Below are positions 43,777 through 64,000 of a DNA stretch of 64,000 nt, one piece after another. The notes under the pieces were generated by a model that was not told where the DNA came from, searched no databases, and worked only from the letters and a program-made list of their open reading frames with translations. The position numbers and the translations under genes are program-made. Within the stretch, counting starts at the first letter, position 1. Each line of letters opens with the position of its first letter. The DNA lies in contig NC_091277.1 of the NCBI RefSeq assembly GCF_042100115.1, positions 2,728,001 through 2,792,000 of the forward strand, written 5' to 3'. The DNA is from Alternaria dauci. Lineage: Eukaryota; Ascomycota; Dothideomycetes; Pleosporales; Pleosporaceae.

Positions 43777-43829
43777 AGGTAGAGAGTAGTGAATACTTAC
43801 TAAAAAACAAATGCGTTTATTTCTCTAAA

Positions 43830-43952
43830 CGTACTTCTTTGCACGTATATCTTTACACGTATATCTTTACACGCACTTCTCTACCCGCACTTCTTCGCCT
43901 AAACTTCTTTATATACACTTCTTTATATACACTTCTTTACCTATATATCTTA
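43830..43952. repeat. 14-bp minisatellite
   Basis: About eight and a half 14-bp units of the type CGTATATCTTTACA / TACACTTCTTTATA in tandem, with substitutions but almost constant length. The array sits in the 3' flank of the gene at 43163, at the left border of the AT-rich island. Confidence 0.8.
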
Positions 43953-44066
43953 CGTATGGAGGCGGCTTCCGATCTTTTAGCGGACCGTCATCCATTTGTT
44001 GTTGTTTTTTATTCGTAATCTATTCCCTGAAATTAGCAACTACTTAGCACCTAATCCCTATACTAA

Positions 44067-44126
44067 CTGCGACCGAACCAACTACGACCAAACCGACTAC
44101 GACCGAACTAACTACGACCGAACTAA
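44067..44126. repeat. 15-bp tandem repeat
   Basis: Four units of CTACGACCGAACTAA, the last two identical and the first two with a few changes. It lies inside the transition from normal composition to the RIP-degraded block. Confidence 0.85.
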
Positions 44127-44142
44127 CTACAGTGTCTGTGCA

Positions 44143-44173
44143 CGTAATGCCTAGGTTCGCGTAATGCCTAGGT
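44143..44173. repeat. 14-bp direct repeat pair
   Basis: CGTAATGCCTAGGT occurs at 44143-44156 and 44160-44173. These are the last bases of ordinary composition before the AT-rich island. Confidence 0.8.
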
Positions 44174-45509
44174 AATAACACTATAACCTTCTAAGAAAAG
44201 AAGCTGTAACGCTACTAAAAGTTATAATAAAATTATATAAAGCTAGGTTTATACTATATAGCCTTATAAAGGTTTTAGCTTATTTAGAATATTTTTTAAG
44301 GGTATAGATTAACCGCGTTCTAGTCTTTTAGGGTAGAGCTACTAGTATAACTACTAGGGCTTATTTAAAAGCTATAGTATTACTAATATACTTCTAACAC
44401 TTTATAGCTATCTTAGGAGCTTATAAGGCTTTATACTTACTCTTTTAGGATAGTTATATAGCTTTTTAAGAGTTATAAAGTACTTTTTAGCTATCTTTTT
44501 AGCTAACTCCTTCCTCTATACTTCCTAATATCTCTCTTATTTAATATACTTTACCTTAAGTAATTAAAGCTTATAATAGTAGGTTTACTCCTTTAGCTAT
44601 ATTATCTCTATATTTTAAAGTTATTATAATATAGCTTATTATTATTATAATACTTTATTATCTTAAGCTTATTAAATATACTTAGGTAACTAGAAAATAG
44701 CTCCCCTATAATACCTCTAAGTACCCTTAGGCTATAAGGTATAAAACTTATTATTATACTTCTTTTTAGTAGCTAAAGACTCCTTAAGGTCCCTTATCTC
44801 TCTTTTAAGGATACTATTTTAAGCTATAATATAGTATAAATATTATTAAAACTTCTTAATATTCTTATTACTTTAATCTTTTACTATATAGTATATAATA
44901 GACTTAATCTTAAGCTAGTCTTCTCTACTAAGTATAGAAGTTAAGCTTTTATCTAAATCTAATACTTCTTTAGTAAACTTCTTAAGTATAGTATCTAAGT
45001 TAGGTAAGTATATATTAATTACTTTAAATAATCTTTTAATAAGTAGATATTTAAAAGTACTACTCTAAGCTCTCTAAAAGAGTAAGAAGAAGTCTCCTTT
45101 ACTAATAAGTAAACTATAGCTTAATTAAAGAAAGTTTATTAGTTTAGATAAATAAGTAGTTAAGAGAGGCTTAAATATCTTAATATTAAGTAGTTAAAGT
45201 GTATAGGTAGTATAAGATAGAAATATAGCTAATAGGATCTTATTATTATATAGGATCTATAGCTATTAAGGAGTAGTAATTAATAGCTAGTTAAAGTATA
45301 CCTTTTAGTCTCTTTTTTAAAAAACCTCTTTAAGATAAGTTAACTTAAAAGTATTATTACTCTAACTAAAAAGAGGTAAGGTAATTAAGACTAAGTAGTT
45401 ACTTACTTTAATAGTATCTATCTAGCTAAGTTAAATAGCTCTATTAGCTCCTTTAAAGATAAGTAAAGGACTTAGAACTAAGCTATCTAAATAAATATAA
45501 ATTAAAATA

Positions 45510-45995
45510 GTATTATAAGGTAATAAGAAGGATCTCTCCTTAACGTAGGTTATATAGTAAGAGACTATTAGGTAACTACATTAGAAGGTAATAATTAGTA
45601 TAGGGCGCTAGTTACGTAATAGATATCCTACTAAGAGGAGCTATCCTACTAAGGATAGGATAGTAGGCCTATATAAGATATTAACTATTATAACTATCCC
45701 TTAGAAGATTATAACTAATAGGATAGTAGTAATAGTAATAGATAAGGTAATAGGAAAAATAATATATTATATCTTATTATTATATTTTTTATAGTTAACT
45801 TAAATAGTTTATCCCTTACTTAGATTATTAACTAGTTATTCTATTATTTATAGAATTAGTATTATTTATCTCTTAGTTATAATTATAACTCTTTTCTACT
45901 TAATTATTCTATACGCTACCTTATAGACTATTACCTAAGCCTAACTTACCTTAGTATAGACTAAGTTTAGAGAAGTATAGTACGACCTTATATAA
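45510..45995. repeat. long direct repeat, copy 1 (probable LTR)
   Basis: Shares a series of long near-identical blocks in the same order with 58968-59455, for example AGTATTATAAGGTAATAAG, GGTAACTAcATTAGAAG and the 60-bp stretch following TCTTATTATTAT. Differences are mostly transitions and small indels. It is probably an LTR of the same family as the gypsy element at right, here solo or belonging to a degraded copy. Confidence 0.65.
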
Positions 45996-46909
45996 TAAAT
46001 AGTTATCTACTTAATTAAGCTATCTTAAAGAGCTAAAGTTACTCCTTTTTAGTTATAGAGTACCTTATTAAATACTTACTTTATTCTATTAAGTATTCTA
46101 AGTTAAAATCCTATTTTAATTATATTAAATATATAAGTTAGTATAAGGTTATACTTTATAATCTTTTTATATAAAAGCTTAAAGTATATACTATACTTAG
46201 CCTCTAAATTAGCTTTATACTATAACTAGTCTATCCCCTAACTATACTAAGTAATAAGGTTATCTAAATACTTATTTATAAAGTAAGTAACTTATCTTTT
46301 TTAACCTCTTTTCTAGCTAAAGATAAAGTAAATTAATATATTATTATCTTTATAGGTAGTAAATATTACTTAGTAAGTATCTTAATATATTATATAAGCT
46401 TAGCTTTATATTATAAGTAGAGGGATTAATAGCTAATACTATAAGGTTTTATTTTACCCTAATATCTTTAAGTAAGTATATATTAGTTAATATTATACTT
46501 AGTAATAACTTTTATATATAAGAACTTATCTCTTAGCTTATATAATTTAATTTTTTTAATTACTTATTAACTTAGATTTATATTAGTAGAATTATAATAT
46601 ACTAAAGTTATAGTATTATAGTATTCCCCCCTAGGACTTAGCGATAGGGCCTATAGTATAATCTGATATTATATTACTAAGAAATTTTAAAACTAAGCCT
46701 CAACTATATTAGTATATCTAGAGGTCTCTTTTTACCTATAATACCTTTCTATCTACTCTACCTATATTATACTATATATATACTTATATCCTAGATTCTT
46801 ATTAACCTTAACTAACTTTATAAAATAGCTATACTACCTTAACGTCCTTACTATTATAATTACTACTAATACTACTTAGAGATTAAGAAGCTCTATTATA
46901 TTATAGTAA

Positions 46910-46969
46910 TTATAGTTATAGTTATAGTTATAGTTATAGTTATAGTTATAATTATAATTATAATTCCCT
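46910..46969. repeat. hexanucleotide array (TTATAG)7(TTATAA)3
   Basis: Seven perfect TTATAG units followed by three TTATAA units. It may be a RIP-altered form of an older hexamer with C or G (for instance CTGTAA-like on one strand), or simple slippage. Confidence 0.9.
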
Positions 46970-48977
46970 TTAAGTAGCTATAAAGCCTATATATTAGTAG
47001 TAGTACCCTTATATATTACTACTATAGCTACTATAGCTATTAAAGCTATTATAGCTATTATACTATACTTATTACTATTATATACCTAAATCCTATTATA
47101 TTATATCCTAAGCCTTCTATATTATTAAATTAATTATCTACTACTTATACCTATCTTAGCTCCTTAATAATATCTATAATATATAGTAGCTAGTCCTTAA
47201 AGTCCTTATTATAGACCTCCTCTAAGTACCTATACTACTTATTAGTTATTATAGTACTAGTAACCTATATATTATATATATACTAGACCTATATATCCTA
47301 AAGAAGAGTAAATAACTTATTAGCTTTATTTATACCTTTACTAGCTAGTATAATAGTAGTACTTATAAAGAGGACCTTCGTAATAAATACTAAGTCCCTA
47401 AGTATATAGTTAAATTCTATTTTAGTAAACCTATAAAATAGGCTAAGAGATTAAATATAAGTTTAGAACTTATACTTAAGGTTACTTTTAAGGGGGTTAA
47501 TCTTAATAATAACTTTATACTTACTATACTACTTAATAGTAGCTACTATAGTTACTAAGAGGGCTACTAAGCCTTCTAAAACTAAGCGCTTTATACTTAT
47601 AATAATATTATATATAATAACCTTTATATTAGAGATACTAGAGTTACTAGAGTTACTAAATATATTAGATATATTAAAGTATAGGAGTTAAGAGAAGAAA
47701 ATTTAAGTTACTTAAATATTTCTTTATTCTTAAGTACTATAGTTATAAGCTTAGGTATAAGCTATAGACTATAATTTAAAAATTCCTCTTCTCTTTAATA
47801 TTACTATAACTTTCTAGAACTACTTAAAGTTTAAGGCTTTAGCTTTAACTTATTTATTATTAAATATATATAGCTATATATAGTAAAACTAAGTATTTAG
47901 GAAATATACCTTTACTATAATTTATTATAGTATCTTTTAATAGTATTATACTTATATCTTTTATTAGTATATTTATTATTTAATTAGTATTATATTATTA
48001 GGGGTAAGTATTATATAAACCTAACTATTATATATATAAATATTATATATAATTTACTAATAATTTTCTTTATTTTCTAAAAGTAGGGGGGTATTATTAA
48101 AATATAAATTTAAAAAAGTAAAAAGTAGCTATCCCTCTACTTATTAGTTATAAAAGTTAATAAAAAAAAGATAAAGTAATAATATAATTTAAACGTTAGA
48201 CTAATTAGTATTTTAGAGTAGTAAAGCTCTAATATCTATATATAAAAACTAAAGTTAAAAGAATTTACTAAAGGTAACTAAAAAGATACCTATTAAACCT
48301 TAGAAGGCCTAATAGGGATTACTAGTATTAGTTAGTAATATAATTATAATTTATTATAAAGGGAGGAGGATATAGTATTTTTACTATAATTAAGCTTACT
48401 TAGAATTTTATATATTTCTATAAAAGCCTAGTTAATTCTAACCTTTATACTAATCCTAACTTACTTTAAGTATCCTACTATATATAATTAAATTATACTA
48501 TATATAATTAAATTATACTAAATATAAATATATAGAAAATAAAATATTATATATTTCCTCTTTATCCTTATCTAGGAGGTCTTCTAGCCTAGCCTAAAAA
48601 CCCTAGCTAAATAGGTACTAATTTATATATCTATAAGTATACAATATACTTACCTTATATATACTAAGGAGCTACCTAAAGTAGTCCTTAATAAGTTAGA
48701 TAAGTAATTACCTAAGTTCTACTACCTCTTATTAACTAAAATAGTAGATAATATTAATATTATTAATACCTTTAATATTAGTAATATTAAAGTAGAAGAG
48801 ATAGTAAAGAAGAGTAAAATATAGATACTATAAGATATAGAGGAGGTTCTCTATAAGGATTAGATTAATAATACTAGTAGTAGTAAAGTCCTTATAGTTA
48901 ACTATCTTACTATCTTAGTATTAGGAAAGAGATTAAGTTAAGAGAATCAGACCTAGATATAATAGGAAATAAGAAAT

Positions 48978-49224
48978 ATTAATATAATAAGCTAAAGCCT
49001 AATTAACTTATTCCTTAATAGTATCTAAGTTATATATCTAAGGTATATAGTTTATAGTTAATATATCTAAATAATACTTAAACTAAACTCTTAGACTTTA
49101 GACTAAAGGATAATCTAAGCTAATATTAATTAACTTTTAGGATAAGGTAGCCTATAGTTCTCTTTCCTATTAAATATAGTAATAGTATACTTATATATTA
49201 GCTCCCTAAGCGTAGCCCCTTATA
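48978..49224. repeat. 5' LTR of the chromovirus
   Basis: Starts at about TATAATAAGCTAAAGCC and ends near CGTAGCCCCTTATA; aligns collinearly with 55246-55490. The first bases read TATAAT where TGTAAT would be usual, consistent with TG>TA RIP change. Confidence 0.75.
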
Positions 49225-52200
49225 TTTTATATTTAATCCTAATTAGTAGAGCCTTACCTTAAGACTTTATTAATGTAACGTATATTAAGCTCCTTAACTA
49301 CCTCTTCTATTATAGATAAGTAGGTTAACCCTCTATATAAGATTAGTATTACTCTATTACTTAAAAGGCTTTTAGATAATAACTAAGTATAAGCTATTAT
49401 AAGATTACTAGCTTAGGATAATAACTTTATAAGACGCTTAGTTAACGTATAACTAGCCTTATATAATGCTAGCGCTAAATATATATTAGGTAGCTAGTAG
49501 ACTCTAGTCTATAAGTAAGATACTATTTAGAGAAAAGCCCTACGTAATACCTTAGTATTACTAAGGTATAGGTCCTACTACTTATAAAAAATACTATAAG
49601 GTAGTAAGTAATAATAATTAAGAAAAGCCTATAATCTCTTTTAAGGCTAAAGGGGTAAGTTTAGTTAGCTATAGTACTAGAACTATCTAAAGACTACTTA
49701 GAGTTATTAGGAAGATAGTTATATAAGCGCCTACTATATAAGTCCTATTAGTCCTCTATTAAATAGGGTATAGGCTATAATACTAAGTTAAAATACTAAC
49801 TAGTGTAAGAATTATAAGTATAAGGTAACTAGGTTACTAAAAGCTATAGCTACCTAATAACTACTAAAGGTTATTTAGAAGGGCTTTATTATAGAGAATA
49901 AACTATAGAAGCCTTATATAGTAATAAGCTACTAAAGCCCTACTAGTCTTTACTATAAAGGAGTAAGCTACTACTTAGTAATTTATAAGAAACTAGCTAT
50001 TAGTATAAGAATAATTAATAAGTAAATACTAATTAAGAAGCTCTATAATAGATATAAGTATAGATATATAAGGAAATAAGCCTTTTAATAAAGAATTAGA
50101 TAATAGATAATATACTTAATCTTAATATTAATAAGCTATTAGTATATATATTAGCTAAATACCTTATAAGAGTATTTAATAAAGAGATATAAGAAGATAT
50201 TATCTAAATATTAAAGAGTAATAATTAAAAGGATATTATAATAGCTCTAATAATTAATAAGATTACTAGATATACTAAAGAGGCTAGAAAGTTACTTAAG
50301 GGCTTACTAAAAGCCTCTTAGAATATAATAATAGTAATACTAGTAGTTTTAACTTAGCTTATATAGATAATAGTACTTATAACCTCTTAGTTAAAAGTAC
50401 TAGAATAATAAAAGTACTAACTACTAAAGTTTATCTATATACTTAAAAGTTATTTAAACCTAACCTTCTTATTTATACTCTTAGAAGTATATATAAAGAT
50501 AAAGTACTTTTACTTAAAGCTATTTAATAAAGACTAAATAAAGTACTTTTTCTTTAGATATAAGATAAAAGCTAAGCTATATAATAACTACTAAGATATA
50601 CTAAATAGAATAAAAATTACTTATATAGTAAGTTATTACTTTAAATAAGCCTTAGATATTATCTTTCCTTAAGTAAAGTAATACTAAGAGTATAGTTTAA
50701 TAGAAGACTTATAGTACTTCCTTAACTAATAATATAATAACTTATACCTAAAGGTAAAAGCTTTAGACTAGCTATTAAACTTATAATAAAGAAGACGCCT
50801 AATCTAAGACTACTATATAGAGTTTAATAGGTTAGAGCTTTAATTAGGTATATAAATTAGTAATACTTAAAAGAAGAGTATATTCTTAAAGGGACTTAAT
50901 ATAGAGATCTAGAAGGTATTAGTATTAGTAAATAAGGACCTCTCTTTTAAATAGTTTATACGTAAAGTAACCTAAGTATTAGATAGCCTCTACTAGGTAA
51001 ATATAGTAATACGTAGTTAAAAGGAGTTTAGTTAGTAGTATAGTTAAAACTCTTAATAATAGAACTATTAGAACTACGTAAGAACACCTTTACTACTAAA
51101 GGATATAGACTAAGAACTTATAAAGGCTAGTAAAGTAAGTGTAAAGGATAGGAGACTAAATAGTAATTAGGGAAAGTACTATAGCTATAGTAGAGCTAAG
51201 TACTTTATAAGGAACTATAAGAAGGGAAGTAAGCCTAAGAGTACTAGGGTAAATAAAGTAACCTAGTATAAGTACTTATACGCTTATAGCTATTCTATAA
51301 AGATACTAGATAGTAGTAATATAAAGGATTTAGGAAAAGAGTAGCTCTAAACTAAAGTCTTAGTTTAGAGCCTCTAAAGATAGATTAGTAAATATATAGT
51401 AAATAGAACTAGTTTTAATATTAATATATAAAAATATAACCCCTTACTATATACCTAATTATAAATATAGTCTATAACGCTACTATATTAATTAATAGTA
51501 AGTATTTATATTATATATTAGTTCGTAAGAAGTTTACTTACTAAAGCTATCTTAAGTACTTTATAGTTACTCTTTAGATAATTAAAGGGATTAATAGAAA
51601 GTTATTTAGAATTTAGGAAGTATTTTAATTTAAGTTTAATATATATAGCTCTTAAGAGGTTACTTATATATATATTATTAACTATATAGATAAGGATATT
51701 ATCCTAGGGAAGGGGTAGATAGACTACTAAGATATTATAATAGCTCTAGTAAAGAAGAGCTTATTTATCTACTTAATAGGCCTTTAGGTAAAGTATAATA
51801 AAAGTATTATAAATAAGAGAGTAGCTAGCTAAGTTAATACTACTATATTTATAAGTCTTATAAAAAGATTAAAAAACCTAGAAAAGAGAATCTAAGTATT
51901 TACTACCTTAATTATAGATATTAATAAAGCTTTAGTACTAAAGAAGATAGTAGATATAAAGTTAATACTACTAAAGTACTATTAGACCTACTATAATCTC
52001 TTTAACCCTAAGGAAGTAGAGAAGCTTCTCCTATACTAAAGACTAAGAGTAAACTATAAGATTAATTTAGAGCTAAAAGATAATTAGTAACCTTAGCTAC
52101 TTTAAGGTTTACTATATAGTATATTAAGAAGAGAACTTCTAGTACTCTAAAAGGAGCTTACTTTACTACTAGAGAAAGGGTTTATTTATATAAGTAGCTT

Positions 52201-55200
52201 ACTAGCTTTATTATTAATTCTTTTTACTAAGAAGCTTAGAAGAGGATTATATTTATATATAAATTACTAAGTACTAAATATAATTACTAAGAAGGATTAA
52301 TACTTATTACTACTAAGATAAGAAACTCTTAATAACTTAAGTAAAGTAAAGTAGTTTACTAAACTAAACGTAATTATAGCCTTCTATAAGATTAGGATAG
52401 CTAAGAGTAATAAATAAAAAATAGCTTTCTAAATATACTTTAGACTCTTTAAGTAGTTAGTAACTTTATTTAGTATAGTTAACTCTCTAAGTACTTTCTA
52501 ATAGTATATTAACTAGACCTTAAGAGAGTACCTTAATAAGTTCTATTTAGTCTACCTTAATAATATACTAATTTATATAGATAGTAGCTTAAAATAATAT
52601 AGAGACTATATCTAAAAGGTCTTTAGTAAGCTCTAAGATATAAGTCTATATATAGATATTAAGAAATATAAATTTAATATAAAGACTATAAAGTACCTTA
52701 GCTTTATTATTAACGCTAGGAAGGGTATTTAGATAGATCTAGATAAGGTTAAAGCTATTAAGGACTAAGAGGCTCTTAGGTTAGTAAAAGGTATTTAATT
52801 ATTTCTTAGCTTTATAAACTTCTACTAAAGGTTTATTAGAGACTTTACTAAAATAGCTACCCTTATTACTTAACTAACTAGAGATATAAGCTTTACTTAG
52901 GGATCTAAAGAATAATTAGTATTTAATAAGTTAAAGGAGATCTTCCTTATAAAGTTAAACCTTACTATATTTAACCTTAAACGTAATATAGTCCTTAAAT
53001 ATAACTTATTTAGTTATATAGTAAGAGGAGTATAATATTAATATAATAATAATAGGATACTATATCCTTATATATACTTCTCTAGGAAGAATAACGCTTA
53101 TAAGTATAACTATAAGATTTATAATAAGGAGCTACTTACTATTATCTACTACCTTAAGGAATAGGATACTAAACTATATTTAGTAAAGAGCTTTAAAGTA
53201 ATTACTAACTATAAGAACCTTAAGTACTTTATAAAGCCTAAGATATTAAGTAAGTACTAAGTATATTAGGTAATACTACTAAGCTAATTTAATATAGAGA
53301 TTCTATATTAGCTAAAGAAATAGAATATAAGAGCTAATATACTTTTATAAAGAGAATAAGACTTACCTAAAGATATATTAGATAAGTATCTTTAGAAGTA
53401 TATAATATAAGTCTTAAAACTAATATCCTAGTACTATAAAGAAGTTAGTAGGGAATAAGATAATCTACTAGCTACTTAGGTAATATTAGTAAAGATATAT
53501 ATAGGATAGATAAGAGTCTACCCTAACCTAACTAAAGAGTAATTAGAAGGATAAGATACTACTACTACTAAGAGTAGTATAGACTAAGTAGAATAAGATT
53601 ATAGAATATTAGAAGAATAAGTAAGGTTAGAGAACTTAACTATATAAGGAAAGGAGCTAGCCTAAACTAATAAACTTAAGAAGTTATAAATAGAAGCTCT
53701 AAAAGTTAATTAGTAGTATAAAGAGGTTTTATAAGTAGTACTAGGTTAGGAATAAAAGTTCTATCTTAGCTTAGGCGTAAAGTACTTAATCTTAAAGTAT
53801 TTAGTAAATAACTAAAGAGTATTATTATACTAAAGTAGAAAATAAGTACTTAATAATAAGAACTTATATACTTAAATTATTAGTAAGATATATAATTCCT
53901 TTTTAGCTAGCTACCTAAGTAAAGAGATTACTTATTAAATACTTATATAGGACTTCTTCTAGCTAAGTATAATAAATAGTACTAAGTATTATATATAGAA
54001 TTATAATATATATAAAAGAATAATACTTTAGAGTAAAAGAGCTTAAGAATTATTAAAACTATTACCTATCTTAGATTACTTTTAGAAGGAAATCTTAATA
54101 GACTTTATTAAAGGATTACCTATTAGTAAAGGTATAAAGAACCTTATAGTAGTAACTAACTATCTAGGGAAAGGATCTATCTTTATCCTATTACTTAATA
54201 TAAGAATAGAGATAGTAGTCTAAGTATTCCTTAGGTATATAGTTATATACTACTAGCTACCTAATATAATTATATCTAACTAAGGTAGTTAGTTTATAAG
54301 CTTATTATAGGAGCGCCTTTATAAGATCTTAAAAATTAAGTAGTAACTATTAATAGCCTTTTACCTATAGATAAATAAGTTAATAGAGTAGATAAATAGT
54401 ATATTAGAAGTATATATCTAAGTATTTATTAGCTAGGTATAAGATAACTAGGTACCTCTTTATCTTATAGCTTAGATTATAATTAATAGGAGGGATATAA
54501 TATTAATAAGAGTATCTTTATTCTTCTTATAATATAGTTACTACGTAGACCTACTATAGCTAGAGGTACCCTATAGTGCTAATTATAAGAAGTATAGTAC
54601 TAAAGAGTATTTAGAATATAAGAAAGCTAAGGCTATTATAGCTAAGTTCTAAGAAGTATTTAACTTAGCTTAAGCTAGTATAGCTAAAGCCTAGGTTAAA
54701 TAAGAGAAGTAAGTAGATAAGTACTATAAAGAGGCTAAGAACTATAAGGTTAGTAATAAGGTCTAGCTTAGGCTTAATAAGTAATATAATACTAGTTATA
54801 AATTATATAAGCTTAACTAGAAAAATACTAAGTATATAGTAATTAAAGTAGTTAATAGCTATTTAGTTAAGTTAAATACCTTACTAAGCTACTATCTTAT
54901 CTTTTATATTAACTAACTCTACCTTACTAGTATAGACCTACTACTAAGCTAAGTATAAAATAACTACTAGCTACTACTACTACTATAAGTAAATAGTAAT
55001 AAGGAGTAAGTTATAGAAAATATTATTATAGAGTAGCTTAGGTACTAAGGCTATAAATAAAAGCTTTACTATAATATTAAATAAAAAAGATACTATAAAA
55101 AATTATTTAAACTAGTAGAGCTATTAAAAGAAATAAAAGTACTAAACTAATAGTTAACTTATATAAAAAACTTTTAAGATAATAAAAGATACTTACTAAA

Positions 55201-55228
55201 TAGTCTCTAGTAGTTTCTACCCTTAAGT

Positions 55229-55245
55229 AAAGAGGAGGAGGAGGG
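55229..55245 (+). other. polypurine tract
   Basis: AAAGAGGAGGAGGAGGG-type tract immediately before the 3' LTR; in LTR retrotransposons it primes plus-strand DNA synthesis. It fixes the element's orientation as plus. Confidence 0.75.
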
Positions 55246-55490
55246 TATTATAATAAGCTAAAGCCTAATTAGTTTATTTTTTAATAGTTTCTTAGTTATA
55301 TATAAAAGGTATATAGTTTATAATTATTTTATCTAAATAATACTTAGACTAAACTCCTAAACCTTAGATTAAAGGATAATCTAAGCTACTACTAATTAAC
55401 TTTTAAGATAAGGTAGCCTATAGTTCTTTTCTTTATTAAATATAATAATAGTATACTTATATAATAGCTCCTTAAGCGTAACTCCTTATA
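55246..55490. repeat. 3' LTR of the chromovirus
   Basis: Collinear with 48978-49224, ending CGTAACTCCTTATA. The two LTRs differ at many positions, almost all explained by RIP-type transitions plus small indels, so age cannot be read directly. Confidence 0.75.
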
Positions 55491-58400
55491 GTCTATCCTA
55501 AGAACTATAAGAGAAGAGGAAAGGAATAAAGATAGTATAGTAAAGAAGAATTAAAATTATAATAAGAATTAGAGAATATAGCATAAAAAAGTATAAGATA
55601 AATAGTTAGTAAATTATACTAGGAGGGAGGACTTTAGTATCTAGTTTAGGATTTATAGGTCTACTTATTAGGGTTATATATAGGTTTTATTATATAGTAG
55701 TAAGTCTAAGAGTTATTCTAGTTAAAGAAGAGGAGGCCTTCTTCTTAAGTAAAGGAGGGATATAGTAAAGAAACTAAAGGAAGTATAAGTAGTTAAAGAA
55801 CTATTAGGCTTAAGGATAGTATAGGAAAAAGAGGCCTTATAAAAACTAACTAAATAGTATTTAGCTATAAAATAATAACTATAAGATATGCACTCCTTTT
55901 AATATTTCTATATCTATTTACTATATTAAGTACCTATTCCTAATAGAGAATTAGTAACGAAATACTCTACTATAGCCCTCTAAGCCTTAAGCCTATAGAT
56001 CTTATAAATAATCTTAGCTTTCTAACTAAAAGTACCCTTACTAATAGTAACCTTATACTAAGTCTTAAGCTTAGTAATCTTAATTATAATTATACTATAC
56101 TATATCTTAAGATTAGTATTAATAGGCTTCTACTTATATTAATATAGATTAGTATAGCTTATAATAAGCTATATAAGACTAGAAAAAAGTAAAGTAAGTA
56201 TTTATAGCCTTCTTAAGAGTACTAAAGCCCTTATTAACTAATTCTACTTCTTCTTAGACCTTCTTAGCCTTAATTAGGGCTTTTACCTCCTTCTTAGTCT
56301 TAATTACGTCCTTAGAGTATAACTTATTATTTCTATAGTACCTAGAATAAGGAGTATTAGGATTATTACTACTAGTAATAATACTACCTAGGTAGGCCTT
56401 ACTAGTATAAAGCTATAAATACTTATAGTTAGGGGTAAAAGTCCTAAGGTATAAGTTAGCTTAGATAGGCCTATAATAAGCTATAATAGGCTAAGATAAC
56501 TTTATAAAGGCTAACTTAGGCTTAGTAGCCTAAAAAGAAGTAATAAAAGCTAACTTATATCTTAATAGCCTTCTTTATACTATAATACTCTTTACTAAGC
56601 TAGCCCTCCTACTTCTTAAAACCTTTAGCGTCTAGGGTAGGACCCTATATAGTAGTAGAGGTAATAGTATTATTATTAGGAGGCTTATAACTATAGTAAA
56701 GAATATAAATAATTTAATAAATCTTATTAAAGTTAATATCTATATCTATATAAAGTTATAATATATTAGTATACTCTATAATAAGTTTATAGGGTTAAGG
56801 TACTATATATTAGAGCTTTATAGCTTAGTATTTAGTTTAGTAAGAAATAGTACCTATACTTATAGGACTTAACTATAGTAGTACTTCTAGCTATATTCTA
56901 AACCTTAGTAAAGAAGACCTTATAGTTATTTTTATTTATATTAAAGAAGTTATAGCTATACTCTCCTAAAACCTTATACTTACTTAACTCTTAGCCTAAT
57001 AAGTAACTAGTATATAGATAGTAAGTTATATATATAATACTAGAGGTATAGTAGTTAGATATAAGTAGCTTAGAATAAGGTACTATAAGAGGATATAGCT
57101 TAGAATAAGGTAGTATATAGTAGATAAGTATAAAAGAATAGCTTTAGACTACTAGACTATATACCTCTAAAAAGAGTAGTAATAACTAAGTAGTTATTTC
57201 TTATCTAGAATAGTATATATAGTATATAATACTTCTTCCTTACTAGTCTCTCTACTAGGTAAAAGTAAGTCCTTATAATAAGTAAATAGGTAGGTAAAAA
57301 AGTTAAGAATATAGTAAGGGGTATAAAGGTAGAGTAGAGGAGGTTATATTAGTCTTAATCTAGTTATCTAGGTCCTATTAGTACTAGAATAAGCTAAAAT
57401 ATACCTCCTTACTTATTAAAGAGCTAAATAGCCCCTATAGGCCCCTAAGGGCCTATAATAAAGTAATTTAAGCTTAATAGGGCCTTTATAAGATTAAGAA
57501 AAGAGTAGAGAATTACTTATAATATTAATTATTAAGTAGTAAGAAGATAGAGAAAAGATAATAGAATAGTTAAAAATATACTAAAAGCTTAGGCTACTTA
57601 GAAACTAAGCTAGTAAAGGTAATAGTAAGGTAGTAGTAAAGGTAAAGGTAAAGATTTTAAACTAAATAAATTCTTAAATTTACTTACTTATAGAATTATA
57701 AATTTACTTCCCTATATACTACTAGCGCCCTTAGTAGTTAGGTACTAGGTAAGGTAGCTAACTAACTTAGAATAGGCTACTTAGGGGTAACCTATACTTA
57801 ATTAAGTTAATTTAACCTAAGGAGGGGGATAATATTAGGAACTAGATATATCTAGTACCTTCTAGTCTAGAATAGACTAGGATAGACTTAAATACTCCTT
57901 CCTTTACTATTATAGCTTAATAGCGATTTATCTCTAGTCTACTTAAGAATAATACTACTATTTATACTAATTATTATACATCTAGTATCCTATATTACTA
58001 TTATCTAATAATAAGATACTAGATTTAGAAGAGGAAGAAGACTTAGAGAATAAGGAGACTCTAGGGGGGAAGAGAAAGTAGAATAGTAGTAAGAGTATAA
58101 TAAGAGAAATAAATTAGAAGCTAAAAGACTAACTTAAGGAGGCTATAGTATAAATAGTAGTAAGTATATAAGAGCTCTATAAAGTAACTTAGAAAGAGGT
58201 TACTATATTACTTAAAGAGTAGTATTATAGAAAATTTACTTAATATATACTATATATAAGTATTTAGGTAATAAGAAATATTATCTTTAAAGCTATTATA
58301 ATAACTATAATAAAGTATATATAAGACTAAAAAATACTTCTTAGCTATTAGCGCTCTTAGTACTCCTAAGGTAATTACCTATTTATTAATAATATTCCTT

Positions 58401-58967
58401 AACTACTATAATATAAAGATTTTAACCTTTTTAGACTAGCTAAAGATAATAATTATTTTACTAGATTATTAGATATATATCTAGTACTTTTATAAGTATA
58501 ATTATTAATATATAATAAATCTAGGCTTATAGTAGAAGATATAAGTTAGTTTAAGAACCTAGTAATAATAGTTAAGATAAGTTAGGCTCTAGGTATTACT
58601 TTTAAAATATAATATAAGTAGATTATAGCTACTCTAAGTACTAAGTATAAATAATTAAAGAATTTAGTCTAGTAATAATAAGTATTTATAAGAAAGTATA
58701 ATTATAAATATATAATAGTAGTAAAGGAGTTCTTCTTTAGCTAGTCCTATTAATATATAAATAAGTCTTTAGCTATAAAGGAAGATAACTTAATAAATTA
58801 GAAAGAGTTTAGTAAGTAACTAAATACTAGGAAAAGATAGTATATAATAAAAGTAGAGTTTAGTATTAGAGTATTTATACCTTTACTATAAAAGTTAATT
58901 AAGAATATATATATAAAGTTAAGCCTAATAGTTATATATTTTATATAGTAGGTAAAGATACTAGTAT
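55491..58967. other. degraded repeats between the two gypsy elements, unresolved
   Basis: No frame could be followed. The segment 56180-56340 looks like minus-strand Lys-rich coding relic. A purine tract at 57819-57829 followed by AATATTAGGAACTAG suggests the 3' end of another LTR element. Nested insertion is likely but not demonstrated. Confidence 0.4.
57819..57829 (+). other. second polypurine tract
   Basis: AAGGAGGGGGA followed by TAATATTAGGAAC, the arrangement of a purine primer next to an LTR start. No matching LTR copy was found in the window. Confidence 0.4.
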
Positions 58968-59455
58968 TATAAGGTAATAAGGAATTATTCCTTTATATAA
59001 GTTATAAGGTAAGAGACCTTTAGGTAACTATATTAGAAGATAGTAATTAATATAAGGTAAGGAATATATAACTAATATTATACTAAGAAATACTATTAGG
59101 CGCTAGTATATAATAGTAGCCTTAGCCTAATAGATAGGTATTAGGTTTATTAGGCTAAGACTAGGGATAGTAATAATAGTAGTAATAGTAGAATAAATTA
59201 TAATAAGTATAAGAATATATTAGATCTTATTATTATACTTTTTATAGTAAACTTAAATAGTTTATCTCTTATATAGATTATTAACTAGTTATTCTATTAT
59301 TTATAGAATTAGTAGTAATTATCTCTTAGTTATAATAATAACTCTTTTCTACTTAATTATTCTATATCTTACCTTATAGACTATCGCCTAAGCCTAACTT
59401 ACTTTAGTATAGACTAAGCTTAGAGAAGTATAGTAAAACCCCTATATAATACTTT
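58968..59455. repeat. long direct repeat, copy 2 (probable 5' LTR of gypsy element 2)
   Basis: Collinear with 45510-45995. Gag-like sequence of the second gypsy element begins a little downstream, so this copy is placed as a 5' LTR. Confidence 0.6.
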
Positions 59456-62400
59456 AACTACTCTAGATATTAGTAGATATTTAACTAATAGATTTACTTA
59501 ATTAAGATTTAATATAGTATCCCTAAGAGTAGTATAGAATAATAAGGCTTAGGGTCTAGGACCCTTAATTCTAGTAGCTATACTAGTTAATAATAAGATA
59601 CTTAATATATCTAATTTAGACTTAGAGGAAAACCTTAGTAATAGAGAGCTATAAAATCTTAAGTAATAGGCCCTTATTTAGGCTTAATAAATAGTTAAGA
59701 TATAGAATATAATTAATTAACTTATAAGCTAGCTAATAGCTACCCCTAATAAATAACCTATTTCTACTAAGAAACCTAAGATAGCGTTACTAGAGAAATA
59801 TAGTAGAGAATAAGAAAAGCTATAAGTATTCCTTACTAATATTAACTTATATTATAAGTATTCCTTACTAATATTAACTTATATTATAAGTATAATAAGG
59901 TACCTAATAACTAGGAAAAGATCTTTATAGCTAGTATATATATAAAGGATAAGGCTTCTAACTAGATATAACCTTATATAGATAACTACCTACTAAACGT
60001 AAAGTATATAAGTACTAAAGAAGGAACTTATACCTTATTTTTAAGTTAGATAGAGTTTAAATAAGAGATAAGATATATCTTTAGAGAAGTAAATACTTAG
60101 AACTAAGTAGAGAAGAAGATTACTTACCTAAGGTAGGCTATATTAGTATTAGTATATATAGTAGAATTTAAGTAACTATAAATATAGATTAACTAGGATA
60201 ATATAGCACTTTAAATAGTATTTAAAGTAGGCCTTAAAGAAAATATTAAGGATAGCCTTATATACTATAATAAGCCTAGAACACTATACGCTCTAATTAA
60301 GCTAGCTACGCGTATAGATAATAGGCTTTAGGAATAAAATAACTAGAAGAAATACTTCTAACCTAACCTACTAAATATAAAGAGGTAACGTAGAAGGTAT
60401 AATAGAGATAGTAACGCTATTATAACTAGTAAGGTATAAGAAAAAGCTAAAGATAAAAGGACCTAAGGATAGAGATAAGATAATCTCTCTAAGGAAGAAT
60501 GCTAGAAGTGTTATAATAATAAAGTATGTCTCTAATATAGTAAAGTAGGATACTTCGCCTAAGACTATAAGGAAGATTAGGTTAAATAGGCAGCTATTAA
60601 GATTAGGATAATTAGATAAGGTACGCTATACCTAGCTAGACTAGAGTTAGATAATAACCTTAGTAACCTAGACCTTTATAAGGAAGTACGTTTAGTAGAT
60701 AAGGAAGCTTTTATAATTATTCTATAAGTTAAGAAGGATAATAAGGTCTTAGCTATAGATAAGCTAAGGACTATAGACTAGAAAGTTAAGGGTAAGGACG
60801 TTCTAAAACGTCTAGCTAACTAGTAGTATTAGATATATAGAGATACTACACACTATACTAATAACTATAGGATTTAAAGTTAAATTATAATTACTAGTAA
60901 AAATACTAAAGTAATTAGACGCTAGGTAGTAATCTAATAACCCTACTTTAAAGATTTAGAAGTTAAGGGTAAGGCCTAAGAAACGTCTAAAGAAGAGGAA
61001 GATACTAAGGAATATAAGAAGATATATTAGTATAATTATAAAAGTAATTACTAGTTCTATAAGGAAGATAAGGAGAAGTGTAGGATAGACTAAGACTAGT
61101 ACTATTACCTAAGCCTATAGGCAGATAAATATCTAGCTAACAACTACTATATCTATAAACTAGAGAAGGTAGAAATATATAAATAACTCCTTTAGACGTA
61201 ATATAAGAATAGGTATAACTTCTATTATAAGTAGCTTAAGGAAGTATATAAGGTAAATAACTATTACTATTATACCCTAGTATTAAATATCTATAAAGTT
61301 ATAGACTATAAGATTTATAAAGCTAAGAAGGCTTAACTAAGGAAGAGAATTACTAGGGAGGAGATTCCTTATTAGAATATTTATTAGAGCTTCTATTATA
61401 ACGATAGGTACTTAACGCACTATAGCTTAAAGAATAATATAGGCTACTTTCCTAGGTATAGGAAAGGTAAGTAGTTAAAAAACTAAGATACTATTAAGGA
61501 TAGGGTTATACTAATAAAGGTATACTAAAAAGGACCCTTAGGAAGGTACAGGATACTAATAGTTAGGTAAAGTAGCTACTTATAACTATATCTATACTAG
61601 GTTAAGATATCTAGGCGCTTATAGATAGTAGGGCTATAAGGATAATAATCTTACCTAGAGTAGTAGAGAAGTACGGGATACCTTACTAGGTTAAGAAAAA
61701 ACTAGTACTAGTAGTACTAGCTAACGAAAAACCTATAGAATATAGAGGTAGTATAATAAGGTTAGAGACAAAACTAATAAAGCTATAGATAGTAGGTATT
61801 AAGTGCCTTATAAATATTAATATTATAGATCTAAGAGGACTAGATATATTAATAGGTTATAACTAGCTAGATACCTATAACCCTACTATTAATTAGCGAA
61901 TATAGATAATACTTAGAAGAGAACCTATATATAAGGTTACTAGAGTACGTAGAAGAGTAAGCCTAAAGGACTAGAGCTTAACCTAGGATAGGAGGTTTAG
62001 TAAGATCTTACCTTATAAGATTATAAGAATCTATAAGAAGGACCCTTAAAGAGTAAGAGTTATATAGATAAGATAAGTTATAACTATAAAGGAAGGACCC
62101 TTACTACTAGAGATACTAAGAGAGTATTAAACTAATAAGTTTAGAGAACTCTTTAAGGAAAATAAAGCTATAGATTTAGTAAACTATTAGGATTAGGATT
62201 ATAAGATTATCCTAGATAAAGGGGTAAAGCTAAGCCTAGGACTAATATATCCTATATTACCTAAGCATAACGCTAAGCTAAGGGAGTATATCTAGAAGAA
62301 TCTAAAGAAGGGATTTATCTAACTAGGATTAGGCCTAATAGCCTTACCTATCTTATTTATAAAGAAGCCTAATAGGAAGTAGTGACTATATATTAACTTC

Positions 62401-63590
62401 TATAGGTTAAATAGCGTTACTTAGAAGAACTAATATCCCTTACTACTAATAACTAAGCTTATAGATTAACTCTAGGGAGTTAAGTAGTTTATAAAGTTCG
62501 ACGTTTAGGAAGGATTTTACTAAATTAGGATTAAGGAAGGATATAAATAGATAATAGCGTTTAAGATAAAATATAGACTATTTAAGTATATAGTAATACC
62601 TTTTAGGTTAACGAATGCCCTAGTAACGTTTTAATTAGTTATTAATAACGCGCTCTATAAATACCTTAGGATCTTTATTATAGCGTATATTAATAATATG
62701 TTAGTTTACACTAGCGGGACGCTAGAAGAATATATAGAGTATATAAAGAAAGTGCTAAGGAAGCTTAAGGAATATAAGCTATACCTATAGCTAGGGAAGT
62801 GCGAATTCTATATAAAGGAAATAGAATACCTAGGCTTTATAATATCTATAGAGGGAGTAAAGATAAACCTAAAGAAGATAGTAGCTATATAGGAGTAGCT
62901 AACGCCTAAAATAGTTAAGGATATATAATCCTTCCTAGGATTTACTAACTACTACTAGAAGTTTATTAAGGATTACTTAAAGATTATAACACCCCTCTCT
63001 AAGATTATAAAGAAGGAAATTAGTTTTAAATAGAATAAAGAATATTAGGAAGCTTTTAATTAAATTAAGTAGATATTCCTTAAAGTACTAGTACTAGAGA
63101 TATATAACCTAAAATAAGAGACGTAAGTTAAGACTAACGCGTTAGATTATACACTTAGAGCTATATTATTATAGTAGTACCTAGATAAGAAGTAGAGACT
63201 AGTGTTCTACTACTTAAGGAAGTTCTCTAGAGTAGAACTTAATTACGATATTTATAATAAGGAGCTACTAGGAGTAGTTAATTCCTTTAAATAGTAGGAA
63301 GTCTATTTACTAAGACTACTATACTAGATTAAGGTTTTTACTAATTACTAGAACTTAGTAGGTTTTATAATAATAAAGAAACTTAACTAATAATAAGTCT
63401 AATAGGCTAAGATACTAGCTTAGTTTAACTTTAAGATAACTTACTATATAGGAACGCTTAATAGAGCTGCGGATACTTTAAGTAGGAGATCTAACTTACG
63501 CGAAGATAGTTATAAAGAACTATATAACGCTATATTTAAGAAGATACCTAATACTATAGAGGTAAACAGTACTACTAGTATAGGGTTAGA
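58968..63590 (+). mobile_element. second, less mutated Ty3/gypsy element, 3'-truncated
   Basis: After the LTR-like repeat comes a gag-like region (59.6-60.5 kb), then a zinc knuckle relic near 60497-60565 (ECxKCYNNK..YFAxDYK). A protease motif reads ALIDSRAIRIIILPRVVEKY near 61617-61680. Reverse transcriptase carries AYINNMLVYTSG near 62683-62718, and RNase H ends near 63500 (LNRAADTLSRRSNLREDS). Integrase and the 3' LTR are missing because the element runs into the minisatellite at 63593. CpA, TpG and longer frames become more frequent to the right, so it was less heavily RIPed than the chromovirus. Confidence 0.75.
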
Positions 63591-63592
63591 GG

Positions 63593-64000
63593 TAGGATAG
63601 TAGCTATAGGGGTCTACCCCTAGGGGTAAGATAGTATCTATAGAGTACTACCCTTAGGGGCGAGATAGTAGGCGTAGAGTGCTGCCCCTAGGGGCGAGAT
63701 AGTAGGCGCGGGTTGCTGCAAGTTACTGCAAGTTGCTACCCCCGGGGGCGAGATAGTAGGCGTAGAGTGCTGCCCCCAGGGGCAAGATAGTAGCCGTAGA
63801 GTGCTGCCCCCGGGGGCGAGATAGTAGCCGTAGAGTGCTGCCCCCAGGGGCGAGATAGTAGCCGTAGAGTGCTGCCCCTGGGGGCGAGATAGTAGGCGTA
63901 GAGTGCTGCCCCCGGGGGCGAGATAGTAGCCGTAGAGTGCTGCCCCCGGGGGCGAGATAGTAGCCGTAGAGTGCTGCCCCCAGGGGCGAGATAGTAGGCG
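63593..64000. repeat. GC-rich 34-bp minisatellite, continues past the window
   Basis: About twelve units of 34 bp, each with a core such as GCCCCCGGGGGC (a perfect 12-bp palindrome in many copies) followed by GAGATAGTAG(C/G)CGTAGAGTGCT. Units near 63695-63745 carry an insertion with TTGCTGCAAG duplications. The leftmost two units have TpA where later units have TpG or CpA. The array is abruptly GC-rich beside DNA that is mostly A+T. Confidence 0.9.

Follow-up and report, generated by a model that had tools for sequence, protein, structure and literature searches.

Telomere-linked helicase (TLH) genes and the yeast Y' elements are terminal and oriented, occur in tandem at some chromosome ends, and combine a helicase with internal minisatellites. 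Among other elements, Starships carry a DUF3435 tyrosine-recombinase captain at their 5' end, and Helitrons encode a Rep/helicase protein.

The nearest published case found for the locus described here comes from Colletotrichum higginsianum. There, DHX_G198 and two related families are helicase repeats of 11.3-18.5 kb located at all 24 subtelomeres, in one orientation to the telomere repeats and between the telomere and unique DNA (PMC5576322). These families contain RecQ-like/DUF3505 domains and occur as single copies, and the A/T content of DHX_G198 (42%) is the lowest given there for TE families (PMC5576322). The MoTeR and FoTeR elements are reverse transcriptase (RT) elements set in telomere repeats; FoTeRs measure 4.3-7.3 kb, and a signal of repeat-induced point mutation (RIP) was called for them in five of seven Fusarium isolates (PMC8381367, PMC12857005).

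The unit of about 25 kb found at the chromosome ends of Alternaria dauci is like the C. higginsianum families in location, orientation and helicase theme (PMC5576322), and differs from them in its CCHC and AAA_11/AAA_12 helicase, a putative SNF2-like protein, tandem units, a fixed terminus and scarred edges. It differs from TLH and Y' in its length of about 25 kb, its several genes and the lack of a RecQ-type match in the ORF pieces scanned. With MoTeR and FoTeR it shares the position at chromosome ends, the tandem arrangement (MoTeR) and the truncated copies (PMC8381367, PMC12857005), but it has genes on both strands and no RT match in its 10 ORF pieces. Judged from its sequence, the unit thus resembles known subtelomeric helicase elements, minus their RecQ or RT hallmarks; within the open-licence PMC literature, no paper was recognized as describing it. 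We regard it as quite probable that the locus studied is the scarred edge of this subtelomeric unit, derived from a founder mutated by RIP at its edges, then multiplied, and distributed by both end-joining and recombination.

The window and the distribution of the terminus

The window is the whole stretch of DNA that was analysed, 64,000 nucleotides long (C6:2728001-2792000), in an assembly of 34.9 Mb and 10 contigs. Contig ends bear TTAGGG tracts, among the tracts listed, and the right end of C6 stops within a unit, without a telomere. A Clr2-like gene of the window encodes a product with 83% identity to an Alternaria alternata protein and 78% to an A. panax protein. The AT-rich block that precedes the unit (Table 1) has a GC content of 0.19-0.33 and a RIP substrate index of 0.27 in its first 500 bp and of 0.00-0.15 thereafter. 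The 14-bp array at its left border was considered as a third RIP-graded array and found unconvincing, being too irregular.

Table 1. Features of the window at and around the edge of the subtelomeric unit (window numbering)
Feature	Position	Strand	Remarks
14-bp array	43821..43946		left border of AT-rich block; TATATA replaces CACGTA in some units
AT-rich RIP-saturated block, decayed RT-bearing retroelement remnant	44001..63550	.	flank joined to window copy
RVT_1 match	62431..62844		C6:2790431-2790844; holds 5 TAG and 4 TAA
Fixed proximal terminus of subtelomeric unit, ATACTATAGAGGTAAACAGTA...	63551..63588	+	42 copies, differing flanks
Putative joining point at the fixed terminus, ATACTATAG
34-bp units 1 (63589-63622) and 2 (63623-63656), RIP-saturated	63589..63656	+	start of 34-bp array; state common to 14/14 edges read
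GC-rich 34-bp array, clean or lightly mutated	63657..64000	+	runs on past window to ~64,640
54-bp variant unit within 34-bp array	63691..63744

The terminus, ATACTATAGAGG..., occurs 42 times with at most two mismatches, and all 42 copies have the same orientation relative to the telomere. They lie at 19 of the 20 contig ends, so that the unit is terminal and oriented as a subtelomeric helicase element is. Genome-wide, the 20-base pattern TACTATAGAGGTAAACAGTA gave 37 exact, 4 one-mismatch and 1 two-mismatch matches; allowing three mismatches added 3 more, against 2 in a reversed-pattern control, which is the control level. In the search of all 20 contig ends with up to two mismatches, no terminus was found at C7 right. 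In contigs of known length, no terminus lies more than about 255 kb from the end of its contig, and at C3 right the units are placed some 120-250 kb inward. A query with the array (63734-64000) returned 216 matches, and those listed cluster near contig ends with a spacing of about 25 kb.

Several loci depart from this arrangement. At C9:92-1004, the very start of the contig, 34-bp array matches occur in reverse orientation and without terminus, as a fold-back or an assembly artefact. On C3, a TTAGGG tract follows a unit from 3325556 onward and the contig runs about 119 kb more, to 3445196, which represents an interstitial telomere or a misjoin. About 21 kb without a further terminus (C4:3421070-3442401) lie beyond the last tail of C4 right. 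The terminus at C8:50948 is accompanied by no helicase or SNF2-like copy in the next 25 kb (C8:26231-50948), a degenerate or different unit. Finally, four termini, at C1:55756, C3:3193723, C4:105545 and C5:2870964, read TAAATAG for TAAACAG; three of these (C1, C3 and C5) lack an associated helicase copy and probably represent RIP'd stubs that older copies left behind.

Organization and gene content of the unit

The unit at C6 right starts at C6:2791551 and measures 25,118 bases up to the following terminus (2816669). Its parts follow in the order terminus, 34-bp array, interior of about 21 kb, 22-bp array, AT-rich tail of about 1.5 kb and telomere-like 19-bp array, the 34-bp array being the centromere-facing (left) edge. 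Where left ends were read over their whole length (C1, C2, C3 and C6), TTAGGG comes after the 19-bp array. The interior at C6 right, with a GC content of about 0.5, normal CpA and near-absent RIP, includes about five gene regions, and ORFs lie on both strands.

A Pfam scan of 10 ORF pieces, a subset of the ORFs of the unit, brought AAA_12, AAA_11 and zf-CCHC alone to the cut-offs; these domains, with four zinc knuckles, occupy a 1272-aa ORF stretch and identify an SF1 helicase. A second long ORF we take to be SNF2-like, by our own reading of its motifs; Pfam gave no SNF2 match in the 10 pieces, and a homologue search with this ORF returned none at E ≤ 0.001. Helicase copies of full length number at least 33, of which 28 are stop-free and 5 have one stop; for the SNF2-like ORF, 33 of 33 full copies are stop-free along 1045 aa and a contig end truncates a further copy, the counts for both genes being lower bounds. 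The homologue search with the helicase gave three hits, two of which look like true relatives (one with 35% identity across 91% of the query, the other, from Curvularia clavata, with 30% across 58%), the third covering just 5%. Sequence searches of the PDB with two ORFs yielded 0 hits each, and an AlphaFold model of an unlabelled ORF from C4R, made without alignment, was unusable (mean pLDDT 34.9).

Both long ORFs at C6 right contain in-frame coding tandem repeats, at about 78.8-79.45 and 85.0-85.7 kb in window numbering. The open frames of the two ORFs differ among copies, spanning 1191-1844 aa and 1439-1531 aa, a variation perhaps caused by copy-number change of these repeats.

The same 10 ORF pieces contained no match to RVT domains, which would mark a MoTeR, a FoTeR or a terminon, nor to RecQ-type DEAD/Helicase_C, DUF3505 or DUF3435; DUF3723 appeared below threshold only (E 0.028, 13.6 bits against a cut-off of 22). 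A Helitron-type match was likewise lacking in these pieces, which were read without introns, so that a split domain could escape. Retroelement and Starship were rejected as identities for the unit, no matching domain being present in the 10 pieces.

Junctions and the spread of the unit

The 14 edges read place the terminus next to about 11 distinct contexts: it borders on RIP'd blocks, on GC-normal DNA, on 19-bp repeats, on a preceding unit's tail or on the array that belongs to an older stub. At the three junctions with 19-bp repeats that were read, the 70 bp before the terminus contain no TTAGGG, a further difference from TLH and Y'. One preceding tail ends at position 851 of the 1340 bases, five end at 1026, and one each at 1266 and 1320. 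The tail breaks fall at the start of the next terminus, with alignments overlapping the terminus by up to about 8 bases, and 2-3 bases are exactly shared at four of the breaks. Stub edges measure 114 bp at C4L and 236 bp at C9R; a single unit comes after each, and the matches show no remnant of the older unit at either place. As read from these junctions, the truncated tails and the stubs fit a process in which the fixed left end would be joined to eroded chromosome ends.

Some junctions are shared, namely those of C4L at 53k and 130k and the five tails ending at 1026, and the flanks of C2L and C8R are related. Recombination, and not new joining, therefore made part of the copies.

Two other accounts of the spread were weighed. 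The bolder one, according to which the unit would be autonomous, non-retroviral and the representative of a new class of element, appears doubtful. On this account it would attach itself by its fixed left end to chromosome ends that are broken or eroded, would supply its own subtelomere, and would persist in RIP-competent fungi because RIP only ever reaches its edges. It is unlikely that tandem units and spread came wholly from recombination after telomere failure (attrition-induced or break-induced replication), with no end-joining of a mobile element; such a model has been published for Magnaporthe (PMC8381367) and agrees with the head-to-tail arrays, the shared junctions and the near-identity between ends, but homologous copying does not set one terminus beside about 11 contexts, two of them GC-normal. 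The combined course that we prefer has both components: new units would be attached, by the fixed left end, to chromosome ends that had broken or eroded, and established units would additionally be copied by recombination between ends.

Base changes at the two edges

The sequence-only reading of the window had described a 34-bp period with the variants TAGAGTACTACCC and CCCCTAGGGG, and all of these were borne out, the variants being located at 63641-63653 and 63617-63626, respectively. In the window copy, units 1 and 2 are devoid of CpA, TpG and CpG and contain 7 and 8 TpA, respectively; units 5-8 have 3 TpA and 3 CpA+TpG each, and units past the edge generally about 3 TpA and 2-3 CpA+TpG per 34 bp. 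Compared with the CCG form of the clean unit, unit 2 differs at nine positions, eight of them C:G>T:A (among these two cases of CG>TA and a single C>T at CpC), the ninth a transversion. The 11 differences of unit 1 are seven C:G>T:A changes, two A>G, one T>G and one G>T. RIP, named earlier as the source of the variants, is thus supported for most of them. The changes had also been described as precisely TpG>TpA and CpA>TpA; the TpA variants are real, and CG>TA, a C>T at CpC and non-RIP changes occur as well.

The switch from saturated to clean is a step at 63656/63657, without slope. Units 1 and 2 are saturated in 14 of 14 edges, read in 13 loci, whatever the flank, and TpA is down to 3-4 in 13 of 13 third units. 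The earlier description of the array as clean from the third unit on holds to that extent, but unit 3 of the window copy retains CCCCTAGGGG at 63685-63694, and 51 of 288 interior units (18%; 13 array copies) have extra TpA. Evenly scattered TpA had been put forward as evidence against a RIP boundary; scattered TpA is present at low density but is uneven, given the constant saturation at the edge.

At the far edge of the unit, next to the AT-rich tail, TpA per unit of the 22-bp array climbs from 0-1 to 6 over about nine units, nearly monotonically (Spearman 0.83 for the last 24 units at C6R). A similar pattern occurs in five of five copies read, that of C1L being slightly more mutated. The gradient is a graded RIP front, inherited and copied between ends. 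A monotonic change along the array, proposed earlier as the mark of spreading RIP, is thus absent from the 34-bp array and nearly realized in this second one. In Leptosphaeria maculans, RIP reportedly leaks from a repeat into single-copy flanks, which resembles the 22-bp front, whereas the Alternaria front is frozen and recurs as a copy at several chromosome ends. A stretch of about 250 bp in the tail has seven dispersed relatives with 87-91% identity and is a plausible and likely trigger of RIP.

It seems distinctly unlikely that units 1 and 2 are instead a conserved functional TpA-rich terminus, for example a putative binding site for joining or replication, and not a product of RIP. Their saturation at every edge, their retention in all terminus versions, which differ by 2-8 bases, and the A>G, T>G and G>T changes of unit 1, which are foreign to RIP, argue for such a function; the preponderance of C:G>T:A in unit 2 (8/9), its complete loss of CpA, TpG and CpG, and the graded RIP front at the far edge of the same unit argue against it. 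Because 4 of the 11 differences in unit 1 are not of the RIP kind, some of the edge may stem from a terminal sequence that had diverged, and not from RIP.

Light mutation between copies and RIP elsewhere in the genome

A comparison of 13 full or partial copies, repeats included, revealed 39 variable sites in 152,849 base-copies. Two coding tandem-repeat stretches of varying copy number (about 75.4 kb and 79.2-79.43 kb) accounted for 25 of the 39 and were left out post hoc. The remaining 14 sites are all C:G>T:A, and 12 of them are CpA>TpA, a bias with P of about 4e-6 when 25.5% of C precede A and sites are treated as independent. When every site in every copy is included, C>T at CpA makes up 17 of 52 changes. 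A separate alignment of five full units over 64.7-85.1 kb, with overlapping data, gave 14 of 14 C:G>T:A and 13 of 14 CpA>TpA. Since 12 of the 14 copy differences are CpA>TpA, RIP or a CpA-biased relative of it would appear to be still active, weakly.

In Zymoseptoria, a mitotic CpA>TpA mutation dependent on DIM-2 has been reported (PMC8016269), and by analogy a DIM-2-type mitotic mutation is a possible source of the 12 CpA differences. RIP itself depends on RID and takes place before meiosis. Four PF00145 matches in three regions of the Alternaria genome are candidates for RID or DIM-2. The DNA methyltransferase domain at C7:1027395-1028549 has one internal TAG, reflecting an intron or a broken gene.

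C:G>T:A changes, mainly CpA>TpA, and loss of CpA and TpG were found in the AT-rich block, in unit 2 and in the differences between copies. Genome-wide, 112 RVT_1 matches were identified, 31 stop-free by our count and 81 with stops. A single element provides 26 stop-free RT-domain matches with equal top score, 19 of them in a 1391-aa open frame. Older repeats are thus destroyed by RIP, and some recent amplifications are spared.

That the unit is actively protected from RIP, by its subtelomeric position or its own gene products, and is not merely young, is quite improbable. Its 33 or more long copies are an ideal RIP substrate, yet only 14 variable sites occur outside the tandem-repeat stretches; however, weak RIP suffices, as another element has been spared to the extent of 26 stop-free RT domains, and the prevalence of CpA>TpA among the copy differences means that any protection is incomplete.

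Inheritance of the scarred edge

The first 106 bp of the window edge were compared with the last edge of each other locus. There are no differences at C6L and C4R, two at C1L, eight at C4L_130 and six in the other eight. C6L has the edge of the window next to a different flank. The 500-bp flank at C4R_3395 is not RIP'd (GC 0.53, substrate index 1.14), and neither is that of the outer C4L_155 edge (GC 0.51, substrate index 1.02). Because the window edge is identical to the C4R copy beside un-RIP'd DNA, the variants were inherited and not made locally, and the flanks at C4R and C4L_155 imply that spread from the transposon of the window cannot explain them. The earlier proposal that RIP spread locally from the neighbouring retroelement into units 1 and 2 and then faded, drawn from the saturated flank and the TpA-rich first units devoid of CpA and TpG, is hardly credible and was overturned by the identical edges at C4R and C6L and by the saturation at all 14 edges.

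Its counterpart in the sequence-only reading, late expansion of clean units after RIP, fared better and is broadly supported, although the entity that multiplied is the whole 25-kb unit, scarred edges included. A length threshold for escape from RIP, also suggested there, is inapplicable, since the array forms part of a long unit with at least 33 near-identical copies. An assembly collapse at the array edge is unlikely, given that the same edge was assembled at many loci.

We infer that the variants of units 1 and 2 came down from a founder that had been RIP'd at its edges prior to multiplication. In this founder, RIP would have hit both edges and spared the then single-copy interior. The unit would afterwards have multiplied over nearly all chromosome ends, scarred edges included, during a period of weak or rare RIP. 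The abrupt step between units 2 and 3, as opposed to the graded far end, is a point against this proposed founder history.

Significance for chromosome ends and genome defence

The unit has largely escaped RIP, the mutation defence that ruined the older repeats of this genome. The RIP fronts frozen in its two tandem arrays serve as a clock mark, separating events before from events after RIP faded. The unit also offers a large natural test of how long repeats survive in a genome where older repeats were mutated wholesale, and it is a candidate cap for broken chromosome ends that would need no reverse transcriptase.
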